Assembly (NCBI GenBank): GCA_025059745.1
Contig: JANXDH010000004.1
Location: forward strand, 597,646 to 661,645
DNA: 64,000 nt
Source: Aigarchaeota archaeon
GTDB lineage: Archaea; Thermoproteota; Nitrososphaeria_A; Caldarchaeales; Calditenuaceae
Direction of reading: 5' to 3'
Position numbers and translations under genes: made by a program. Numbering within the stretch: position 1 is the stretch's first letter; every line of letters begins with the position of its first letter. This document shows positions 4,352 to 20,373 of this stretch, one piece after another. A model generated the notes under the pieces. The model was not told where the DNA came from. It searched no databases and worked only from the letters and a program-made list of their open reading frames with translations.

Positions 4352-5158
4352 CTATCTCATGCCGCACGCGCTCAAAACCTCTTGGAAGAGTATCTCGTTT
4401 GAACACGCTATAACGCCGTACTTCTCGGTACTACTCAACGATAGCCTCTCCACGCTCTCGCCCTCTATGTGAAACGGTAGACCGATCGACTCGATCATGT
4501 ACAGGACAGGGACGAAGTCCATTATGCGCAACTCCCTAGAGAGGGTGACGAACCCATCGCTCAATCCCCTCACTACATTCAAGAGCTCCAGAAGGGCGGA
4601 ACCCATCAACCTCACGTGCTTGACCCTGGGTAACAGAGCGAGATATCTCTGATCGTACGGTGGCCCCCTCACCACCGCCCTTGGATCGACCGTCATCAGG
4701 GCCTCTGAGAGTGAGGTAGGCCGCCTAACGTCTTCACCACTCGTCGATACTTTCCCCTCGACGGCCACAGTCATATCGCCCGAGATCATGTCTATGACCC
4801 CGCTCGCGAAGACGTCGTTATAGTGAGTGGATTTTGAGAGCGCGATCCCGGAGGAGAAGTAAGGGATACTCCTTGACATATTAGTGCTACCGTCTATGGG
4901 GTCTATCACGACAACTAACTCGCTACCCTTCCTTATCAAGCCGCTCTCCTCTGAGACGAACGTGACGCTGGACAGAGATCTCTCGAGGACTCTCATTATC
5001 GCTTCCTCACAGACCACGTCCGCTAAGTACGACAGATCACCGTAGGCTCCCTTTCCGACAGGCTTCGTAGAGATCCCCCTCCTCCTTAACTGATTGTAGG
5101 CTTGGTGAGCGGAGAGCAGGGCCTCGCGGATTACGTCCGATATGAAGTCCTCATCCAA
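4352..5158 (-). CDS. Inositol monophosphatase / fructose-1,6-bisphosphatase family protein
   Basis: VVVIDPIDGSTNMSRSIPYFSSGIAL (IMPase metal-binding motif) and upstream SEESG. Confidence 0.85.
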   Translation of the reverse strand: MDEDFISDVIREALLSAHQAYNQLRRRGISTKPVGKGAYGDLSYLADVVCEEAIMRVLERSLSSVTFVSEESGLIRKGSELVVVIDPIDGSTNMSRSIPYFSSGIALSKSTHYNDVFASGVIDMISGDMTVAVEGKVSTSGEDVRRPTSLSEALMTVDPRAVVRGPPYDQRYLALLPRVKHVRLMGSALLELLNVVRGLSDGFVTLSRELRIMDFVPVLYMIESIGLPFHIEGESVERLSLSSTEKYGVIACSNEILFQEVLSACGMR

Positions 5159-5501
5159 CCCTCGACACCCCTCGTCTCTTTAGTTTCTTCTCCAACATTC
5201 TCCTGATCTTCACTCCAAGAACTGGATACCTCCTAATCAACTCTGCCTCTACCAGCCTGGCCACCTCCTCGCTTATACTGAACCTCGGAGTGACGCTCTT
5301 GAGGTAATTCAGTAGAGCCGAGCTTAGCGGTGAGTAAAACGCTATCCTCGGTTGCCTCATTGCGTAATCAATGGAGAGGGCCAGAACTTTCAAATCACCC
5401 TCTTTCTTCTCCGCGCCCTCCCCTTTTACCGCCCCTCTACCCCTCTTAGATCTATCCTTCTTCGACTCTGCTCGTCTGTTGCGCCTTTCGTTCACAAACA
5501 A
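5151..5501 (-). CDS. Small basic protein of unknown function
   Basis: ORF of 116 aa overlapping the 5' end of the IMPase gene; Lys/Arg-rich low-complexity N-terminus. Confidence 0.5.
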   Translation of the reverse strand: MFVNERRNRRAESKKDRSKRGRGAVKGEGAEKKEGDLKVLALSIDYAMRQPRIAFYSPLSSALLNYLKSVTPRFSISEEVARLVEAELIRRYPVLGVKIRRMLEKKLKRRGVSRVG

Positions 5502-12245: not shown

Positions 12246-13361
12246 GTGATAGTGGGCAGGTGTACCCCGGACGGCACTCATCGGTTCAAAAACAAAGCAC
12301 TCAAGAGGGGCGTCCACGAGAGGCACTTCAAGGAGGCTGGCGGCCTCCTCCTCACCAGCATAGGAATAGGGACTTACATTGGAGACCTGGACCCAGTGAC
12401 GGACGCTTACATGATCCAAGCTGTAAAGGAGTCGGTGATGAGCGGGGCGTGTAACGTCATCGATACGGCGATAAATTACAGGTTCATGAGGTCTGAGAGG
12501 TGCGTGAGGATAGCCCTGAATGAACTCATCGAGGGTGGTCACATAGAGAGGGACGAGGTACTCGTCTGTACCAAGGCAGGCTACCTCACTCACGATCACG
12601 AGCGAGGTACGGACTATGAAGGTTACATTACAAGGAACCTCCTGACCACCAACGTGTTCTCGCCGGACGAGATAGTCGCAGGCATACACAGCATCTCTCC
12701 CAGGTACCTCTCTTGGAGCGTTGAGAAGAGTCTGGACAACATGGGCGTGGAGGTGATAGACGTCCTGTATCTGCATAACGTCGCCGAGAATCAAGTACCG
12801 GTCGTGGGGCCGCACGTGTTCAGAAGGAGGATCAGCGATGCGTTCACGAGGTTGGAGGAACTAAGGGACAGAGGTATGATATCGTACTACGGACTCGCCA
12901 CTTGGAACTCCTTGAGGGTAGTCATGGATGCCGAGGTCCACACCAACCTAGCCGATATAGTCTCGATGGCGAGGGAGATCGGGGGGAGTAATCACGGCTT
13001 CAAGTTCGTCCAGCTACCGTTCAACCTGAAGATGACCGAGGCTCTTACTTCAAGGAACCAACTCGTCGGGACAGAGGTCTTGTCCGTCTTCGAGGCTTGC
13101 GAGAGGCTAAACCTGATACCTGTGACCAGCGCGCCCCTACTCGAGGGCATGCTTCTGAGAGAGGTCAGGGGATCGGTCATAAGGGGCCTGTCGAGGGCTC
13201 AGTCGCTCATCCAGTTCGCTAGGTCCTCGCCTTCTAAGTGTGCTCTCGTGGGACAGAAGGATCCCGCGCACCTCAAAGAGAACTTAGAGCTTTCAAGGGT
13301 CCAACCGCTGAGCGACGAGGAGTTCGAAAGGGTCCTGATAGAAAATAGCAGTCAGGGATGA
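12246..13361 (+). CDS. Aldo/keto reductase family protein
   Basis: GIGTYIGDLD, CNVIDTAINYRFMRSE (Asp/Tyr), VCTKAGY (Lys), VIDVLYLHN (His): AKR tetrad. Confidence 0.85.
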   Translation: MIVGRCTPDGTHRFKNKALKRGVHERHFKEAGGLLLTSIGIGTYIGDLDPVTDAYMIQAVKESVMSGACNVIDTAINYRFMRSERCVRIALNELIEGGHIERDEVLVCTKAGYLTHDHERGTDYEGYITRNLLTTNVFSPDEIVAGIHSISPRYLSWSVEKSLDNMGVEVIDVLYLHNVAENQVPVVGPHVFRRRISDAFTRLEELRDRGMISYYGLATWNSLRVVMDAEVHTNLADIVSMAREIGGSNHGFKFVQLPFNLKMTEALTSRNQLVGTEVLSVFEACERLNLIPVTSAPLLEGMLLREVRGSVIRGLSRAQSLIQFARSSPSKCALVGQKDPAHLKENLELSRVQPLSDEEFERVLIENSSQG

Positions 13362-13375
13362 TCTTGAAGGGAGGA

Positions 13376-14179
13376 CTAAACTTTGACCTTCAGGTTGAGT
13401 TCATCTGCGACCTCCTCAGGCGTCGCTCCCTCGTGCACGATCCTGTTCAGCGCCCTTATCATACCGAGCGGGTTGCCCGACTGGAAAACGTTTCTCCCGA
13501 AGTCTAGCCCGAGAGCTCCAGCTCTGATTGCGTCGTAGGCCAACCTGAGAACGTCCTCCTCCCTCTCCATCTTCGGACCGCCAGCGATGACCAACGGTAC
13601 GGGGGTCGAGTTCACGACCTTCTCGAAGTCATCGGTATAGTAAGTCTTGATGAAGTGAGCGCCCAGCTCCGCGGCGACTCTGCAAGCGAGGGCTATGTAC
13701 CTGGTGGTCCTCTTCTCTAGTTCCCTGCCGACCGCTGTGACGGCCAGTACGGGAATCCCGTACCGCTCCCCCATGTCGACTAGCTTCGCGAGAGACTTCA
13801 GCGTTTGATGCTCATACTCCGTGCCGACATATATCGAGAAGGCCAAGGCCGAGGCGTTGAGCCTGATCGCGTCGTCTATAGAGGTCACTATCTCCTCGTC
13901 TCCGAGAACAGGGCCGTCTATCGTGTTACCTCCTGACACGCGCAAGACCACTGACTGCTGCATCGATGGGTCGAAACAGTTCCTCAGCACGCCCCTCGTC
14001 AACATCACGGCGTCCACGTGAGGCAGTAGTGGCGTTATAGTCTTCTTTGGGTCCTCGAGACCCTTGATGGGTCCTAGGAAGTACCCGTGGTCTATAGCGA
14101 GCATCAGCGTCCTCCCGTCCGATGGTCTGAAGATCCTAGAGAGCCTGTTACGTAAACCCCATCCCATGCATCCCATCAA
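13376..14179 (-). CDS. DhnA/LsrF-type class I aldolase family protein
   Basis: LMLAIDHGYFLGPIKGLEDP, FIKTYYTDDFEKVV (Schiff-base Lys region), PLVIAGGPKMEREEDVL. Confidence 0.85.
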   Translation of the reverse strand: MMGCMGWGLRNRLSRIFRPSDGRTLMLAIDHGYFLGPIKGLEDPKKTITPLLPHVDAVMLTRGVLRNCFDPSMQQSVVLRVSGGNTIDGPVLGDEEIVTSIDDAIRLNASALAFSIYVGTEYEHQTLKSLAKLVDMGERYGIPVLAVTAVGRELEKRTTRYIALACRVAAELGAHFIKTYYTDDFEKVVNSTPVPLVIAGGPKMEREEDVLRLAYDAIRAGALGLDFGRNVFQSGNPLGMIRALNRIVHEGATPEEVADELNLKVKV

Positions 14180-14276
14180 CCTCTTCTAGAATAATAATTT
14201 TACCTGAGGACGATCGAGACTGACTTAAGACCCTGTACCTATTAGACTTAAATTCTCATCGAGCGCGTTAACTCAC

Positions 14277-14756
14277 GTGGAGGGCACCACGATCAATAGG
14301 AGCCCGAATGGCAGGCTCGTGAGATTCAATGACGTCTTCGGTGGTTTCGAGAGACTCGATTCCGTCAAGAGGATCCTCGGGGACCGCACGAAGGAGATAC
14401 TCGAGAGCCTGATGGTGGAGGTGGTTGACGATCGGAGATACATGTGGGTGAACGACAAGGAGGGCAGGATCTGTGTCAACAGGTCTTACCTCGAGAGGGG
14501 CAACGCTAAGCACATCTACTTGGACGTCATACACGAACTCGTTCACATCAGGCAACTGAGAGAGGGTAAGGACCTCTTCGATAGAACGAAATCCTACGTA
14601 GACAGAGAGACCGAGATCGAGGCCTACAGGATCACCGTTGAGGAGGCTAAGAGGATCGGCATGACAAAGAGGGAGATAATTGATTATCTATCGGTAGAGT
14701 GGTTGACCAGAGACGAGGTCATCCGGCTTGCTAGGTCGGCCGGTGTAGACGATTGA
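14277..14756 (+). CDS. Putative small zinc metalloprotease-like protein (HExxH)
   Basis: HELVHIRQ plus downstream DRETEIEAYRI, a typical gluzincin-like arrangement; function unknown. Confidence 0.6.
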   Translation: MEGTTINRSPNGRLVRFNDVFGGFERLDSVKRILGDRTKEILESLMVEVVDDRRYMWVNDKEGRICVNRSYLERGNAKHIYLDVIHELVHIRQLREGKDLFDRTKSYVDRETEIEAYRITVEEAKRIGMTKREIIDYLSVEWLTRDEVIRLARSAGVDD

Positions 14757-14762
14757 TGCCCA

Positions 14763-15062
14763 TCAGTAGATCCAGGCCTTGAGGGGCCTCCTGAAATTTT
14801 GATTTATGTGGAGTAATAACTGAGCTGGATCGTCAAAAAATGCCCACTCCTCTTTACCTCCAGGGACGAACCCCCTCAACCTCCTGTCATAGACCCTCTC
14901 CGTCCGGTTGACGATATACGTTCCGTCGGATCTCGAGATGAAGACGTAGCTCCTCCTTCTGAGGACCTTGAGTGGAGCCTCTATCCTGATCCCCTCATCA
15001 TGCTCGAGACCCTCTATGGCCCTCCTCAACTCCCTCCACGACCTCAACTGCCTCTCGCGCAT
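14763..15062 (-). CDS. Hypothetical protein
   Basis: 99-aa ORF with coding-like composition, convergent with the HExxH gene. Confidence 0.5.
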   Translation of the reverse strand: MRERQLRSWRELRRAIEGLEHDEGIRIEAPLKVLRRRSYVFISRSDGTYIVNRTERVYDRRLRGFVPGGKEEWAFFDDPAQLLLHINQNFRRPLKAWIY

Positions 15063-15169
15063 ACCTCATGAGCACCAGATAGCCTCTACACCCATATGAT
15101 AAAGTTTTTCGTTGAGAGTTAGCAAGATTATTATCTGCCTACATGTAATAAACCCCGGGAACGGGGTAG

Positions 15170-16351
15170 TTGCTGCGGATATTCAATTCACTCACCATGA
15201 AAACCGAACGGTTCAGATCAATCGAGGAGAAGAGGGTTAAGATGCTGATCTGCGGCCCCACCGTCTACGATAACATCCATTTGGGTCACGCTAGAACGTT
15301 TGTGACTTTTGACGTACTCGCGAGGTTCTTGACATACATGGGCCACGATGTCCGCGTTGTGGTAAACGTTACGGACCGCGACAGGAAAATAACCGAGAGG
15401 GCAAAGTACGAGGGACTCCCGCCCGACTTGATAGCGGGGCTCTACCTTGATGAGTTCAAGCGGGACCTAACGCTGCTGGGTATAAGCACGTTCAACGACT
15501 TCTTCAGGGTCTCGGAGCAGACTGGTCTAGCGGCTCGATTGGTGCGCACACTCATCGAGAGGGGTCAAGCGTACAGCGCTGGTGACAACGTCTATCTAAG
15601 GAACAGATGGGGCGGTAAACTCTTCGGGATCTCAGAGAGGGAGCTAAGGCTGATGAGGATCGAGTTAGACCCGCTCAAGAGGGAACAATCCGACATAAAG
15701 TTGTGGACCGCTGAAGCCCGCGGAGAGACCGGTGGACCGAGCTGGCACATGCAGGACGCCTCGGTAGCCGTGGCCGCGTTGGGCGGGAGGTACGACGTCC
15801 ACGGGGGCGCGATCGACCTGATATATCCCCATCACCGATCCTACGTCAAGATTATGGAGGCCTTATTGAGCGACCGGTCTCCCGCGAGGTACTGGGTTCA
15901 CGTGGGCCTCTTGCTATATAGGGGGAGGAAGATGTCGAAATCGATTGGTAACGTGGTCGAGGTCAAGTCCGTAATGAAGAGATTCTCCCCTGAGGCTCTG
16001 AGATTATACTTACTAAGCCACCACTACAGGGACGAACTCGACTTCTCGATCAAAGGTCTCACCCAGGCCTGCTCTCGTTATAGAGAAGTCTCCGAGGTCC
16101 TATCGTCATATAGAGAAGAGCTACTTGAGCTCGACGAGAAGGGACCTCACCGGATGAGGACCGAGATGTCGACGCGCTACCTGAGAGAGTTCATGCGATC
16201 TATAAGTGATGACCTGAACACGCCCGAGGCGATAGAGTCCCTGATGGCACTATGCTCCTCGATGATGCGAAGAGAAGCGTCGACCGATCATCTACTCTCC
16301 CTGAGGGAGATGTGCGAAGTCCTCGGTATACCAGCGGCCAGAGATAGATGA
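15170..16351 (+). CDS. Cysteinyl-tRNA synthetase-like protein, atypical (two zinc ligands replaced, no C-terminal anticodon domain)
   Basis: ICGPTVYDNIHLGHART (HIGH region), GRKMSKSIGN (KMSKS), DVHGGAIDLIYPHH; but WHMQD replaces WHIEC and HHRSY replaces HHENE. Confidence 0.88.
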   Translation: MLRIFNSLTMKTERFRSIEEKRVKMLICGPTVYDNIHLGHARTFVTFDVLARFLTYMGHDVRVVVNVTDRDRKITERAKYEGLPPDLIAGLYLDEFKRDLTLLGISTFNDFFRVSEQTGLAARLVRTLIERGQAYSAGDNVYLRNRWGGKLFGISERELRLMRIELDPLKREQSDIKLWTAEARGETGGPSWHMQDASVAVAALGGRYDVHGGAIDLIYPHHRSYVKIMEALLSDRSPARYWVHVGLLLYRGRKMSKSIGNVVEVKSVMKRFSPEALRLYLLSHHYRDELDFSIKGLTQACSRYREVSEVLSSYREELLELDEKGPHRMRTEMSTRYLREFMRSISDDLNTPEAIESLMALCSSMMRREASTDHLLSLREMCEVLGIPAARDR

Positions 16352-16355
16352 CTCG

Positions 16356-17087
16356 TTGAAGGAGCTTCTGGAGGAGAACGAGAACGGTTTCTTCTCACTA
16401 TGGTCCGATAAAGAGACCTACAGACGTGCGATCCTCCTGTGTAACCCGGTCTTCCACGACGACCCTCTCTTCAACCACGCTACAGGTACACTCGATTCCG
16501 AGGACGTAATAGAGTTCATCATAAGGTACTTCGATTCCAGGAACGTTAGGCCAGCGATCTACGCCAACCCTTGGAATCTCTTCCCGCTACGCGAGGTGCT
16601 ACTTGGGTATGGGTTCAGACTCTGGGACGAACTCTTTGTAGAGGTGCGTGGAGCGGACCCTCAATCACCGACCCAATCGACCCTGAGACCGGTTGAAGAC
16701 ACTGATGCCCTGAGAACGTGGATAGAGATCTACGAGAGCGCCTTCAAAATCCCTAGTTATTGGCACCGGGAGATCGAGGTGAGGACGAAGACCATGTTGC
16801 GGAGGGACGACGTGACCCTCTTCGTGAAGTACGCAGGCGAAATACCAGTGGGATCGTTGGCCGCCTACTTCACCGGCGATCTCTGCGGACTCTATTGCAT
16901 CGGCACCCCTCCTAAGTATCGGGGCAAAGGAATAGGCTCATCGATGATAAATGAGGCCGTGAGGGTGGCAGGAATGAGAGGTGCGAGAGCGGTGTGCCTC
17001 CAGACGCTCGCGAGCGACAAGTTGACGGGATTCTACGAGAGGCTCGGTTTCAGAGTAGCCTACAAGAAACAAGTCTATCTGAGATGA
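16356..17087 (+). CDS. GNAT-family N-acetyltransferase
   Basis: C-terminal GNAT core IGTPPKYRGKGIGSSMINEAVRVAGMRGARAVCLQTLASDKLTGFYERLGF. Confidence 0.88.
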   Translation: MKELLEENENGFFSLWSDKETYRRAILLCNPVFHDDPLFNHATGTLDSEDVIEFIIRYFDSRNVRPAIYANPWNLFPLREVLLGYGFRLWDELFVEVRGADPQSPTQSTLRPVEDTDALRTWIEIYESAFKIPSYWHREIEVRTKTMLRRDDVTLFVKYAGEIPVGSLAAYFTGDLCGLYCIGTPPKYRGKGIGSSMINEAVRVAGMRGARAVCLQTLASDKLTGFYERLGFRVAYKKQVYLR

Positions 17088-17096
17088 GGGACTGGT

Positions 17097-17480
17097 CTAT
17101 CTCGAGCCATGGAGCCGCTTTAGAGAGTTGTAAAAATCGCTCCTCATGAGTTCCATCACGCTCCTCTTCGTGTACTCGACACCCTCCCGTTTTCCGGTCA
17201 GAACGTGGGCGATCTCACCGTCCTCGAACTCAAAGAAGAGTTGCGGAATCACGTAGTCCTCAGACCAGTCGCCGTACTTCCTCACCAGCTCATCGGCCAG
17301 CTTCTCGTCCTCAGTGTCTATATCGTACAGCCTGCATGGGACGTTCAACTCCATCGCCATCGCCCTCGCTGGTTCTATCACGGTGGGGACGCAGTGAGGA
17401 CACCACTTCGCGTAGACCAGATGTATCGCCTTTACCCTCTTCGGCATCATACCTTCTTCCTCACCTGATCTAGGACCCAA
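17097..17480 (-). CDS. Thioredoxin-fold protein (CPHC)
   Basis: IHLVYAKWCPHCVPTVIEPARAMA... with a cis-Pro-like YVIPQLFFEF. Confidence 0.75.
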   Translation of the reverse strand: MGPRSGEEEGMMPKRVKAIHLVYAKWCPHCVPTVIEPARAMAMELNVPCRLYDIDTEDEKLADELVRKYGDWSEDYVIPQLFFEFEDGEIAHVLTGKREGVEYTKRSVMELMRSDFYNSLKRLHGSR

Positions 17481-17944
17481 CCGTGCCCGCTTCCTAGGTC
17501 GTTGACCCCGACCTCATCTATTTTTCTGTATTGCACCTCGGCGACGTACTCGTTGGCCTTGGGCTCGCCGCGTAGTTCGGCGCTGTAGACGAAGCAGATG
17601 TCCCAGTGGAGCTGACCCTTGTACATGGAGCTCTCTCCGGTGTGTGACTGGACCTCTAATAGCCTCAGATCGTAGTCCTTGACTCCCAGCTGTTTCTCAA
17701 CGATCCTTTTGGCACCATCGGTCGGGTGCTCGCCTATCTTTAAGTGAGTCGCGGGCAACCTCCATTTGTCCATCCAGACTTTGGGAATGGCCTTGTTGAG
17801 GAAGAACTCCTCGTACCACAGGTCCCGGTTGTTTATCTTCACCAGCAGTATCTTGTCCTGCTTCATCGCGAGGACGAACGACGAGAGACATAGGCCGCCC
17901 ATTGGGATGTTGTGCGGACCGAAGTTCGCGAATTGCAGTCCCAT
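17447..17944 (-). CDS. NUDIX-like hydrolase family protein
   Basis: Overall NUDIX-like pattern (LVKINNRDLWYEEFFLNKAIPKVWMDKWRLPATHLKIGEHPTDGAKRIVEKQLGV); the Nudix box is degenerate. Confidence 0.55.
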   Translation of the reverse strand: MGLQFANFGPHNIPMGGLCLSSFVLAMKQDKILLVKINNRDLWYEEFFLNKAIPKVWMDKWRLPATHLKIGEHPTDGAKRIVEKQLGVKDYDLRLLEVQSHTGESSMYKGQLHWDICFVYSAELRGEPKANEYVAEVQYRKIDEVGVNDLGSGHGWVLDQVRKKV

Positions 17945-18123
17945 ACAACTAGTTCCTGAATTTAGGGTTTATATCTATTGCGGTCGAATACATTCGACCG
18001 GCTTTGGGCGCGCGCTGTCTACCGGAAACTTATATATCTATGATGAGATAGTGAATCTTAAAAGCAGATGAGGTCAAATGAGCGTCGAGATGCTGACTCT
18101 TTCAGAGGGGTGATAGTTGATCC

Positions 18124-20373
18124 GTGAGCTCTCACAGATACGTCGGTAAGCCCATACCACCGGACGAGTCGTTAGTACATGTTGAGGGCAGGGGCAGGTA
18201 CGTCGATGACGTGAGGAAGGACGGTATGCTATACATGGGCGTGCTCAGGAGTCCGTACGCGAGGGCCAGGATCAGGAGTATAGATTTCTCCGACGTCAAG
18301 GCCAGGGCTAAGTTGGTGCTCTTACCGATAGACCATAAAGTGGTGATGCGCGATATCGCGATCCCCGCCTTCTTCGAGTACAAGGGCAGGGCTACGTTGG
18401 TGAGGATGCCAGTCCTACCGTCCAACGGGTACGTGAACTTCGAGGGTCAACCGGTCGCTGCGGTAGTGGCAGATTCCAGGTACGAAGCGGCCGATCTGCT
18501 AGAGCTGTTCTCCGTGGACTACGAACCCCTTCGGCCCGTAATGACGATCGAGGAGAGCCTCAGTGGAGGCGAGGTGATTCACGAGGGGTGCAGCGACAAC
18601 ATAAGCGTCGACGTGACATTGAGAGGCGGCGATGTGGAGAGGGCGTTCGCCGAGGCGGCCCATGTCCTCGAGGATGAGCTCAAGGTCTGTAGGACCATAC
18701 CGAATCCGATGGAGACGAGGGGCGTTGTCGCGGAGTGGAAAGACGGCAAACTCTCCGTCTGGGTCACGAATCAGGGTACATTCAGGATCAAGGACCAGCT
18801 GGTGAACGCCCTCGGATTACAACCAGGCTCGGTCACCGTAAACGTGGTCGACGTGGGCGGCGCATTCGGGACTAAGTCGTCGCTCTATCCGGAGTACGTA
18901 CTGGCCAGCTACGCATCACTCATCCTCAAGAGACCGGTAAAGTGGTTCGAGACGAGATGGGAGCACATGAGATCAACTACCCACGGACGTGACGTGCAGG
19001 CCAGGATCTCCCTCGCGGTAAACAAGGAAGGAAAGGTATTGGGGATGAAGGGCACGGTAATCGCTGATATAGGCGCTTTCAACGTCTTCATCAACGCCAA
19101 CTACGCACCATTCATAGGTGCACAGTTAACGGGACCATACGCCATAAGGGCCGGAGAGGTCAGGGCTATATCGGTCTTCACCAACAAGACGCCTCTAGGT
19201 CCCTACAGGGGTGCTGGCAGGCCGGAGGCCGCCTTCTTCTACGAGAGCATGATGAACCTAGTTGCGAAGGAGCTCGGGCTCGACCCCATTGAGGTCAGGC
19301 TCAGGAACCTCTTAGAACCGTCCGAGATGCCGTTCCAGACGCCCCTAGGATTGACGGTCGACAGGGAGGACTACCGCGAGATACTGAGGACCGCTCTCAA
19401 CAGGTTCGATTACAAACGATTGAGAGAGGAGGTCAGGAGGGAACGAGCGAGGGGTAAGTTGATAGGCATAGGTCTGGCGAACTACATAGAGTTGAACAGG
19501 GTGTTCGCCGGTGAGGGCGCAAAGCTCACGCTTCGGAGGGACGGGAGGATCTACCTATCCTATGGGTCCGGATCGCACGGCCAGTACCACGCCACGATAT
19601 ACAGACAATTGATAGCGGACGCGATCGGGGTAGGTTTCGAGGACGTGGTCTTCGAGATGTCATCAAGCGATGACCTCCCCGGCGGCGTCGGTACCTTCGG
19701 CAGTAGGAGCGCCGTTATCGGTGGTGAGGCCGTTATGAGGTCTGCTCTCAGGCTGAGAGACGAGGTTCTGGAGAGGGCATCGAGGTTGTTCGGAATTCCG
19801 CGAGAGAGGCTAGCTATCTCGGGACGATGCGTAGTCGATCTCAAGAACGGAGGCGAACTCATGGGGCTGGGTGACGTGGCGAGCGAGGGTGAGATCTCCG
19901 TGTACGAGTTCGTCAAGGGACAGGACATATTCTCGTACGGCATTCACATGGCGGTTGTCGAGATAGACGAGGAGACGAGGACCCTGAGGCACGTAAAGTA
20001 CTACGCGATGGACGACGCTGGCAGGATCATAAACCCCTTGATCGCCGAGGGTCAGATAATAGGCGGTATAGTGATGGGCATCTCCCAGGTGTTTTACGAG
20101 AGGGCGGAGTACGATCACAACGGATCCTTGAAGATCGGTGGCATCCTCGAGGCGGGCGTTGCCGCTGCGGCCGACATTCCGATGGAGATAGAGTCGCACC
20201 TCTACGAGTATCCGTCCCACTACCTACACGGGGCTAGGGGCATTGGAGAAGCCGGTCCTATAGGCGCGATACCCTCACTCGTCAACGCGCTTGAGGACGC
20301 CCTAGATACGAGGATCAGGTCGACAGTACTAGCTCCGGATAGCTTATGGGATAAGGCGCCGAGAGTCAGGTGA
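18124..20373 (+). CDS. Xanthine dehydrogenase/aldehyde oxidase/CO dehydrogenase-like molybdopterin-binding large subunit
   Basis: YVGKPIPPDESLVHVEGRGRYVDDV, PLGPYRGAGRPEAAFFYESMM, ARGIGEAGPIGAIPSLVNALEDAL. Confidence 0.92.
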   Translation: MSSHRYVGKPIPPDESLVHVEGRGRYVDDVRKDGMLYMGVLRSPYARARIRSIDFSDVKARAKLVLLPIDHKVVMRDIAIPAFFEYKGRATLVRMPVLPSNGYVNFEGQPVAAVVADSRYEAADLLELFSVDYEPLRPVMTIEESLSGGEVIHEGCSDNISVDVTLRGGDVERAFAEAAHVLEDELKVCRTIPNPMETRGVVAEWKDGKLSVWVTNQGTFRIKDQLVNALGLQPGSVTVNVVDVGGAFGTKSSLYPEYVLASYASLILKRPVKWFETRWEHMRSTTHGRDVQARISLAVNKEGKVLGMKGTVIADIGAFNVFINANYAPFIGAQLTGPYAIRAGEVRAISVFTNKTPLGPYRGAGRPEAAFFYESMMNLVAKELGLDPIEVRLRNLLEPSEMPFQTPLGLTVDREDYREILRTALNRFDYKRLREEVRRERARGKLIGIGLANYIELNRVFAGEGAKLTLRRDGRIYLSYGSGSHGQYHATIYRQLIADAIGVGFEDVVFEMSSSDDLPGGVGTFGSRSAVIGGEAVMRSALRLRDEVLERASRLFGIPRERLAISGRCVVDLKNGGELMGLGDVASEGEISVYEFVKGQDIFSYGIHMAVVEIDEETRTLRHVKYYAMDDAGRIINPLIAEGQIIGGIVMGISQVFYERAEYDHNGSLKIGGILEAGVAAAADIPMEIESHLYEYPSHYLHGARGIGEAGPIGAIPSLVNALEDALDTRIRSTVLAPDSLWDKAPRVR

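Follow-up and report, generated by a model that had tools for sequence, protein, structure and literature searches.

MshC, the cysteine:GlcN-Ins ligase of actinobacterial mycothiol (MSH) synthesis, is derived from cysteinyl-tRNA synthetase (CysRS). It is about 400 aa long, lacks the anticodon domain, retains the HIGH and KMSKS motifs and acts in the same pathway as a GNAT acyltransferase, MshD. The zinc of MshC is bound by C43, C231 and H256 together with the substrate thiol, i.e., by three protein ligands only; the amino group of cysteine is held by G44, T46 and T83, and Y48 is the loop tyrosine (PMC9736012). Another CysRS paralogue without an anticodon domain, CysRS* of Desulfobacterales, is coupled to SelC*/SelB* and still charges the SelC* tRNA (PMC9437257). 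According to a review from 2020, archaea lack both mycothiol and homologues of MshC (PMC7278568). A literature search, with subscription journals mostly outside its reach, returned no report of an MshC-like or CysRS-like paralogue that is partnered by a GNAT in archaea. The archaeal CysRS-like/GNAT unit presented here is apparently undescribed before.

The window, i.e., the whole analyzed stretch of 64,000 nucleotides, encodes a short CysRS-like protein and a GNAT-fold protein (Table 1). All the details that the earlier note on this DNA had read from the letters were borne out. The HLGH and KMSKS motifs are intact and Cys28 is kept. Alignment to E. coli CysRS (1li5) and MshC (8hfm/3c8z) confirmed that WHMQD stands for WHIEC and HHRSY for HHENE, with D196, H221 and Y225 at the positions of Cys209, His234 and Glu238, and the spacing of 25 residues between the Cys209 position and His234 is preserved. 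The anticodon domain is indeed missing (393 aa vs 491 aa in the full-length CysRS of the same genome), and the GNAT gene does start 4 bp downstream, after the gap between 16351 and 16356, with both ORFs on the plus strand.

Table 1. Positions of the features of the short CysRS/GNAT locus in the window
Feature	Position	Strand	Remarks
Short CysRS-like ligase, 393 aa	15170..16351	+	TTG start; catalytic domain and helical region, without anticodon-binding domain
GNAT-fold acyltransferase partner, 243 aa	16356..17087	+	Pfam PF00583, E 1e-11
Codons 28-40: Cys28 (predicted zinc ligand), G29/T31/Y33, HLGH motif (37-40)	15251..15289	+	
Codons 192-196: WHMQD; D196 = E. coli Cys209 position	15743..15757	+	
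Codons 220-225: PHHRSY; H221 = His234, Y225 = Glu238	15827..15844	+	
Codons 254-258: KMSKS motif	15929..15943	+	
Small divergent neighbour, 99 aa, synteny marker	14763..15062	-	No Pfam or NCBIfam match

The 393-aa protein matches Pfam tRNA-synt_1e (PF01406, E 6e-67, residues 15-301), and its best relatives with solved structures are 8qhp, 1li5, 3tqo and MshC (8hfm/3c8z). By model score it falls outside both NCBIfam families concerned: it reaches 274.5 bits with cysS (TIGR00435, cut-off 340) and 186.3 bits with MshC (TIGR03447, cut-off 485). The MshC alignment spans residues 22-364 and the anticodon-binding domain is missing. Other short members that were scanned scored 196-294 bits with the MshC model. 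The protein resembles CysRS in its catalytic domain, its motifs, the predicted zinc ligands Cys28 and His234 and an Asp at position 209, which the full-length CysRS of the same organism also has; it differs from CysRS in the missing domain, in the score and in the presence of that full-length enzyme. The traits of MshC listed above are shared, including the CysRS origin, the length and the GNAT partner, and so are the retained equivalents of Cys28 and His234 and the loss of the Glu238 equivalent. Two structure predictions, for which proteins of the window and of one distant locus were eligible, reached a pLDDT of only 34 and 36 and were set aside.

The full-length CysRS (491 aa) is encoded on the same contig as the window, at G000:C3:542187. 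It scores 373 bits with PF01406 vs 227 bits for the window protein. The earlier note had proposed a genome search for a second canonical CysRS and had allowed that the short protein could be the only, very divergent CysRS of the organism; the gene found refutes this and rules the candidate out. Full-length CysRS accompanies the short one in the window genome and in all six carriers found first; of 16 more carriers tested, 15 have it too. The two kinds differ in length (369-442 aa for short members vs 459-508 aa for full-length ones). The remaining carrier, G496 (93% complete), is the only one tested in which a single CysRS-type gene, the short one, was found, probably because of missing sequence.

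Some full-length CysRS genes of related genomes are peculiar in themselves. Decayed CysRS fragments with internal stop codons are present in L072 at about 5004-5258 (G009:C7:43003-43257) and in L073 at 2173-2562 (G022:C22). They were considered as remnants of the short paralogue, and this was ruled out: the sequences nearest to them come from the same order and are full-length CysRS (78% and 69%). Both genomes also carry an intact CysRS, and the fragments suggest that CysRS has been repeatedly replaced in the window's order. In five genomes of genus g10 (G024:C8:31875-33110, G026, G030, G033 and G034) the full-length CysRS frames are 604-615 aa long; near query residue 78 the alignment is interrupted and continues about 260 bases further on, which looks like an in-frame insertion of about 90 residues.

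The earlier note regarded the zinc site of the short protein as dismantled and supposed that the enzyme no longer selects cysteine by zinc. Neither statement found support. Among 45 sequences of the short family, residues C28, G29, T31, Y33, H37, H40, T68, W192, D196 and H221 are invariant, i.e., the C28/D209/H234 set is present in all of them. The substitution at Cys209 is real, but other proteins have it too. WHIED in the full-length CysRS of the same organism marks Asp209 as ordinary for this CysRS lineage, and Asp occurs at this position in many archaeal CysRS. Moreover, the sole CysRS detected in genomes G001 and G006 has Asp209, which is therefore compatible with ordinary cysteine charging. 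Here the family differs from MshC, which keeps Cys at the Cys209 position.

The Glu238 position (225 in the window protein) is variable in the 45 short proteins: His in 34, Glu in seven, and Tyr, Asp, Ile or Leu in one each. Seven short proteins of deep lineages keep both Glu238 and WHIED, and Tyr is found in the window protein alone. MshC also lacks Glu238, with Ser or Gly at this position (HHEYS, HHEFS, HHECG). Its ligands C43, C231 and H256 align with C28, C209 and H234, and its G44, T46, T83 and Y48 correspond to G29, T31, T68 and Y33 of the window protein. Judged from these alignments, the predicted site is better described as Cys/Asp/His with a relaxed fourth position than as dismantled. 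Cysteine is the best-predicted amino acid substrate because the predicted ligands and the cysteine-contact residues are invariant in the short family.

The earlier note's own proposal was that the ligase may have moved from cysteine to another amino acid; we considered it at least for the divergent copy in the window. This copy has Tyr at the Glu238 position, R223, K227 and I228 beside Y225, where nearly all other short members have E, A and Q, and a long branch in the tree. It may have drifted in specificity, being the most divergent member with these unusual residues. However, C28, D196, H221 and the contacts to the cysteine amine are unchanged, the only detected CysRS of G001 and G006 has the same Asp209, and MshC uses cysteine without a fourth protein ligand. 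We consider a change of amino acid improbable.

We searched for other carriers with a profile (A1) built from seven short CysRS sequences. It was run on 301 sampled genomes of one class, that of G390, which we take to be Nitrososphaeria, with the carriers presumably being mostly ammonia-oxidizing archaea (AOA) and related lineages. Short CysRS-like genes were found in 47 of the 301 genomes, in families f7, f45, f76, f79, f80 and f83. Together with the window genome and G354 this makes 49 carriers. Short homologues found across the phylum are 36-41% identical and belong to other families than the window's. The distribution is patchy: several complete f7 genomes have no match at the profile threshold, and within the window's own order (44 genomes searched) no other short CysRS homologue was found and the GNAT was found at full length in the window genome only. 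Viral contigs contained no relatives and phages only CysRS-type genes with 26-32% identity; a scan of genome contigs matched one bacterial CysRS.

The GNAT gene adjoins the short CysRS gene in 46 of the 49 carriers, which answers the question of conservation in relatives that the earlier note had raised. Within the class it is directly adjacent and on the same strand in 44 of 47 genomes, most often with an overlap of 4 to 28 bp, and stop/start overlaps between the two genes are frequent. In L103 the GNAT is split into two ORFs, and in L140, L144 and L145 there is no GNAT beside the short CysRS in the stretch examined. The pair is a conserved two-gene unit. As a separate observation, Asp, Ile and Leu, each seen once at the Glu238 position, occur in the short proteins of L140, L144 and L145.

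These data also bear on the possibility that the short gene is a surplus or degenerating CysRS that serves no purpose of its own, or that the GNAT is an incidental neighbour. The restriction of the pair to one species of the order and the decayed CysRS fragments in relatives could be read in this way, although those fragments are of another kind. Both genes of the window are intact, the catalytic motifs are kept, and conservation of the pair extends across deep lineages, where its genes overlap. We regard this explanation as very improbable.

The main tree includes 75 rows, four of them MshC (an earlier tree with a single MshC row left MshC unplaced). The short proteins, the window protein and 27 others, are monophyletic (100/100) and lie inside an archaeal CysRS clade with Asp209 (100/99). 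In the AOA carriers the full-length CysRS belong to another clade, distant from this one. MshC has its own clade (100/100), but the AU test does not reject a joint clade of short proteins and MshC (p 0.105). The window row is the most divergent short member (branch 1.63) and groups with the AOA forms (100/99), but its placement outside all other short proteins is not rejected either (p 0.34, quick tree). The short ligase appears to derive from an archaeal-type CysRS. In one reading, which we infer from the tree, a second CysRS took the place of an older archaeal one, which was then shortened and redeployed. Among the full-length enzymes, those of the AOA families f7/f45 and those of the deep families f76/f79/f80 fall into different clades (L074-L079, L157-L164 vs L165-L170), which suggests more than one exchange of the translation CysRS.

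The GNAT consists of an N-terminal family-specific region and a C-terminal GNAT domain with the RxxG acyl-CoA motif (R189, G192). The GNATs that follow other short CysRS genes share 27-34% identity with it. It is a generic GNAT, and no NCBIfam family is matched above its cut-off, MshD (TIGR03448) giving 19.1 bits vs 163. The likeness to MshD lies in the presumed role of an acyltransferase acting after a CysRS-like ligase; unlike MshD, the protein has a single recognized GNAT domain, its N-terminal region being unassigned. When 399 genomes of the phylum were searched independently with a GNAT profile (A4), 16 matches were obtained. The best 11 (E < 1e-70) are all partners of known short CysRS genes, one exposed the pair in G354 that the CysRS search had missed, and four weaker ones, in family f5, have no CysRS-like neighbour. 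These lone f5 relatives are full-length or nearly so (L202 6031-6807, L204 5672-6466, L205 5563-6339, L206 5390-6172) and possibly represent a non-paired outgroup of the acyltransferase.

Of 22 loci compared, 13 have a homologue of the 99-aa neighbour near the short CysRS gene; all seven deep-lineage loci are among them (BLASTP E from 2e-25 to 4e-20 for these seven). Its sharing across loci supports the orthology of the window's locus. Two further neighbours may be mentioned. The window encodes at 14277-14756 (plus strand) a 159-aa metalloprotease-like protein with the sequence HELVH and no Pfam match; its homologues occur near the short CysRS in L097 and L155. Convergent with the GNAT gene, at 17097-17480 (minus strand), is a gene for a small thioredoxin-like protein with a CPHC motif and no Pfam match at E 0.001. 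A tie of the latter to thiol chemistry is only a thought.

The comparison with MshC and MshD drawn by the earlier note is apt and the most useful one, and its idea of a non-canonical ligase of the CysRS type that is additional and associated with a GNAT agrees with a paralogue that stands beside a full-length CysRS and is paired in 46 of 49 carriers. It is a different matter whether the pair belongs to a complete archaeal pathway of mycothiol synthesis. The MshC-like truncation and the GNAT partner fit such a pathway, PIG-L genes are present in carriers G390, G121 and G270, and an inositol-phosphate synthase gene adjoins the pair in several Nitrososphaeria loci. The last was considered as a sign of mycothiol and dropped, as the synthase is present in all 16 genomes tested, carriers and non-carriers alike. 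PIG-L deacetylases of the MshB family (PF02585) were found neither in the window genome (88.8% complete) nor in carrier G302 (99%). With a universal synthase and no MshB in two carriers, the mycothiol pathway proper is unsupported. Both proteins score far below the respective cut-offs, MshC does not join the short clade in the tree (although the AU test does not reject such a grouping), and the review cited above reports neither MSH nor an MshC homologue in archaea. We therefore hold true mycothiol synthesis to be highly unlikely. The best reading is that the pair, in which the ligase is joined directly to a GNAT outside the MshD family, is convergent with MshC/MshD and outside both families by model score.

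A role linked to tRNA deserves more weight. The short enzyme could charge a tRNA, a base in a tRNA or an RNA resembling one; Cys-tRNA would then be used or modified by the GNAT, e.g., by transfer of the cysteine to an acceptor or by acetylation. CysRS* of Desulfobacterales is a precedent for charging without an anticodon domain. The short enzymes still have the catalytic core, KMSKS and part of the helical region, and two deep-lineage short members reach 407 and 395 bits, above the cysS cut-off of 340, with the DALR domain matched. However, CysRS* is coupled to SelC*/SelB*, whereas the short CysRS is coupled to a GNAT. A scan of 11 carrier loci found no tRNA gene, and the window has none within 6 kb of its pair; there is no Rfam match at 13000-18200 of the window, and its single tRNA gene lies 7 kb away. 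The lack of a tRNA gene or an Rfam RNA near the pair weakens this explanation. A full-length CysRS is present as well, and the anticodon domain is missing throughout the clade. On balance a tRNA-linked role is possible but rather unlikely.

We give about an even chance to a non-translational cysteine ligase working with a GNAT, in the manner of MshC and MshD. Under this explanation the CysRS-like enzyme would activate cysteine with ATP to Cys-AMP, at a predicted zinc site in which the substrate thiol joins Cys28, Asp196 and His221 as a further ligand. Lacking the anticodon domain, it would hand the cysteine over to a small acceptor, at its amine, and not to a tRNA. The GNAT would then acylate, probably acetylate, the cysteinyl product, and the separate full-length CysRS would be left to serve translation. 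The choice of cysteine, the binding of zinc, the non-tRNA acceptor and the action of the GNAT on the product are what we infer from the sequences, their alignments and the gene pairing.

The small thiols of the abundant ammonia-oxidizing archaea are poorly known. Their genomes have been credited with ergothioneine genes, and those of Nitrososphaerales also with genes for gamma-glutamylcysteine (PMC7554672). We tentatively suggest, with some doubt, that AOA and their kin make an N-acylated conjugate of cysteine not described so far, either a low-molecular-weight thiol or a metabolite based on one, with the GNAT and a ligase that came from archaeal CysRS and evolved independently of mycothiol. 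If true, CysRS would have been recruited into small-molecule chemistry a second time, independently. The conserved ligase/acyltransferase pair in lineages that we read as AOA would make the thiol question directly testable.
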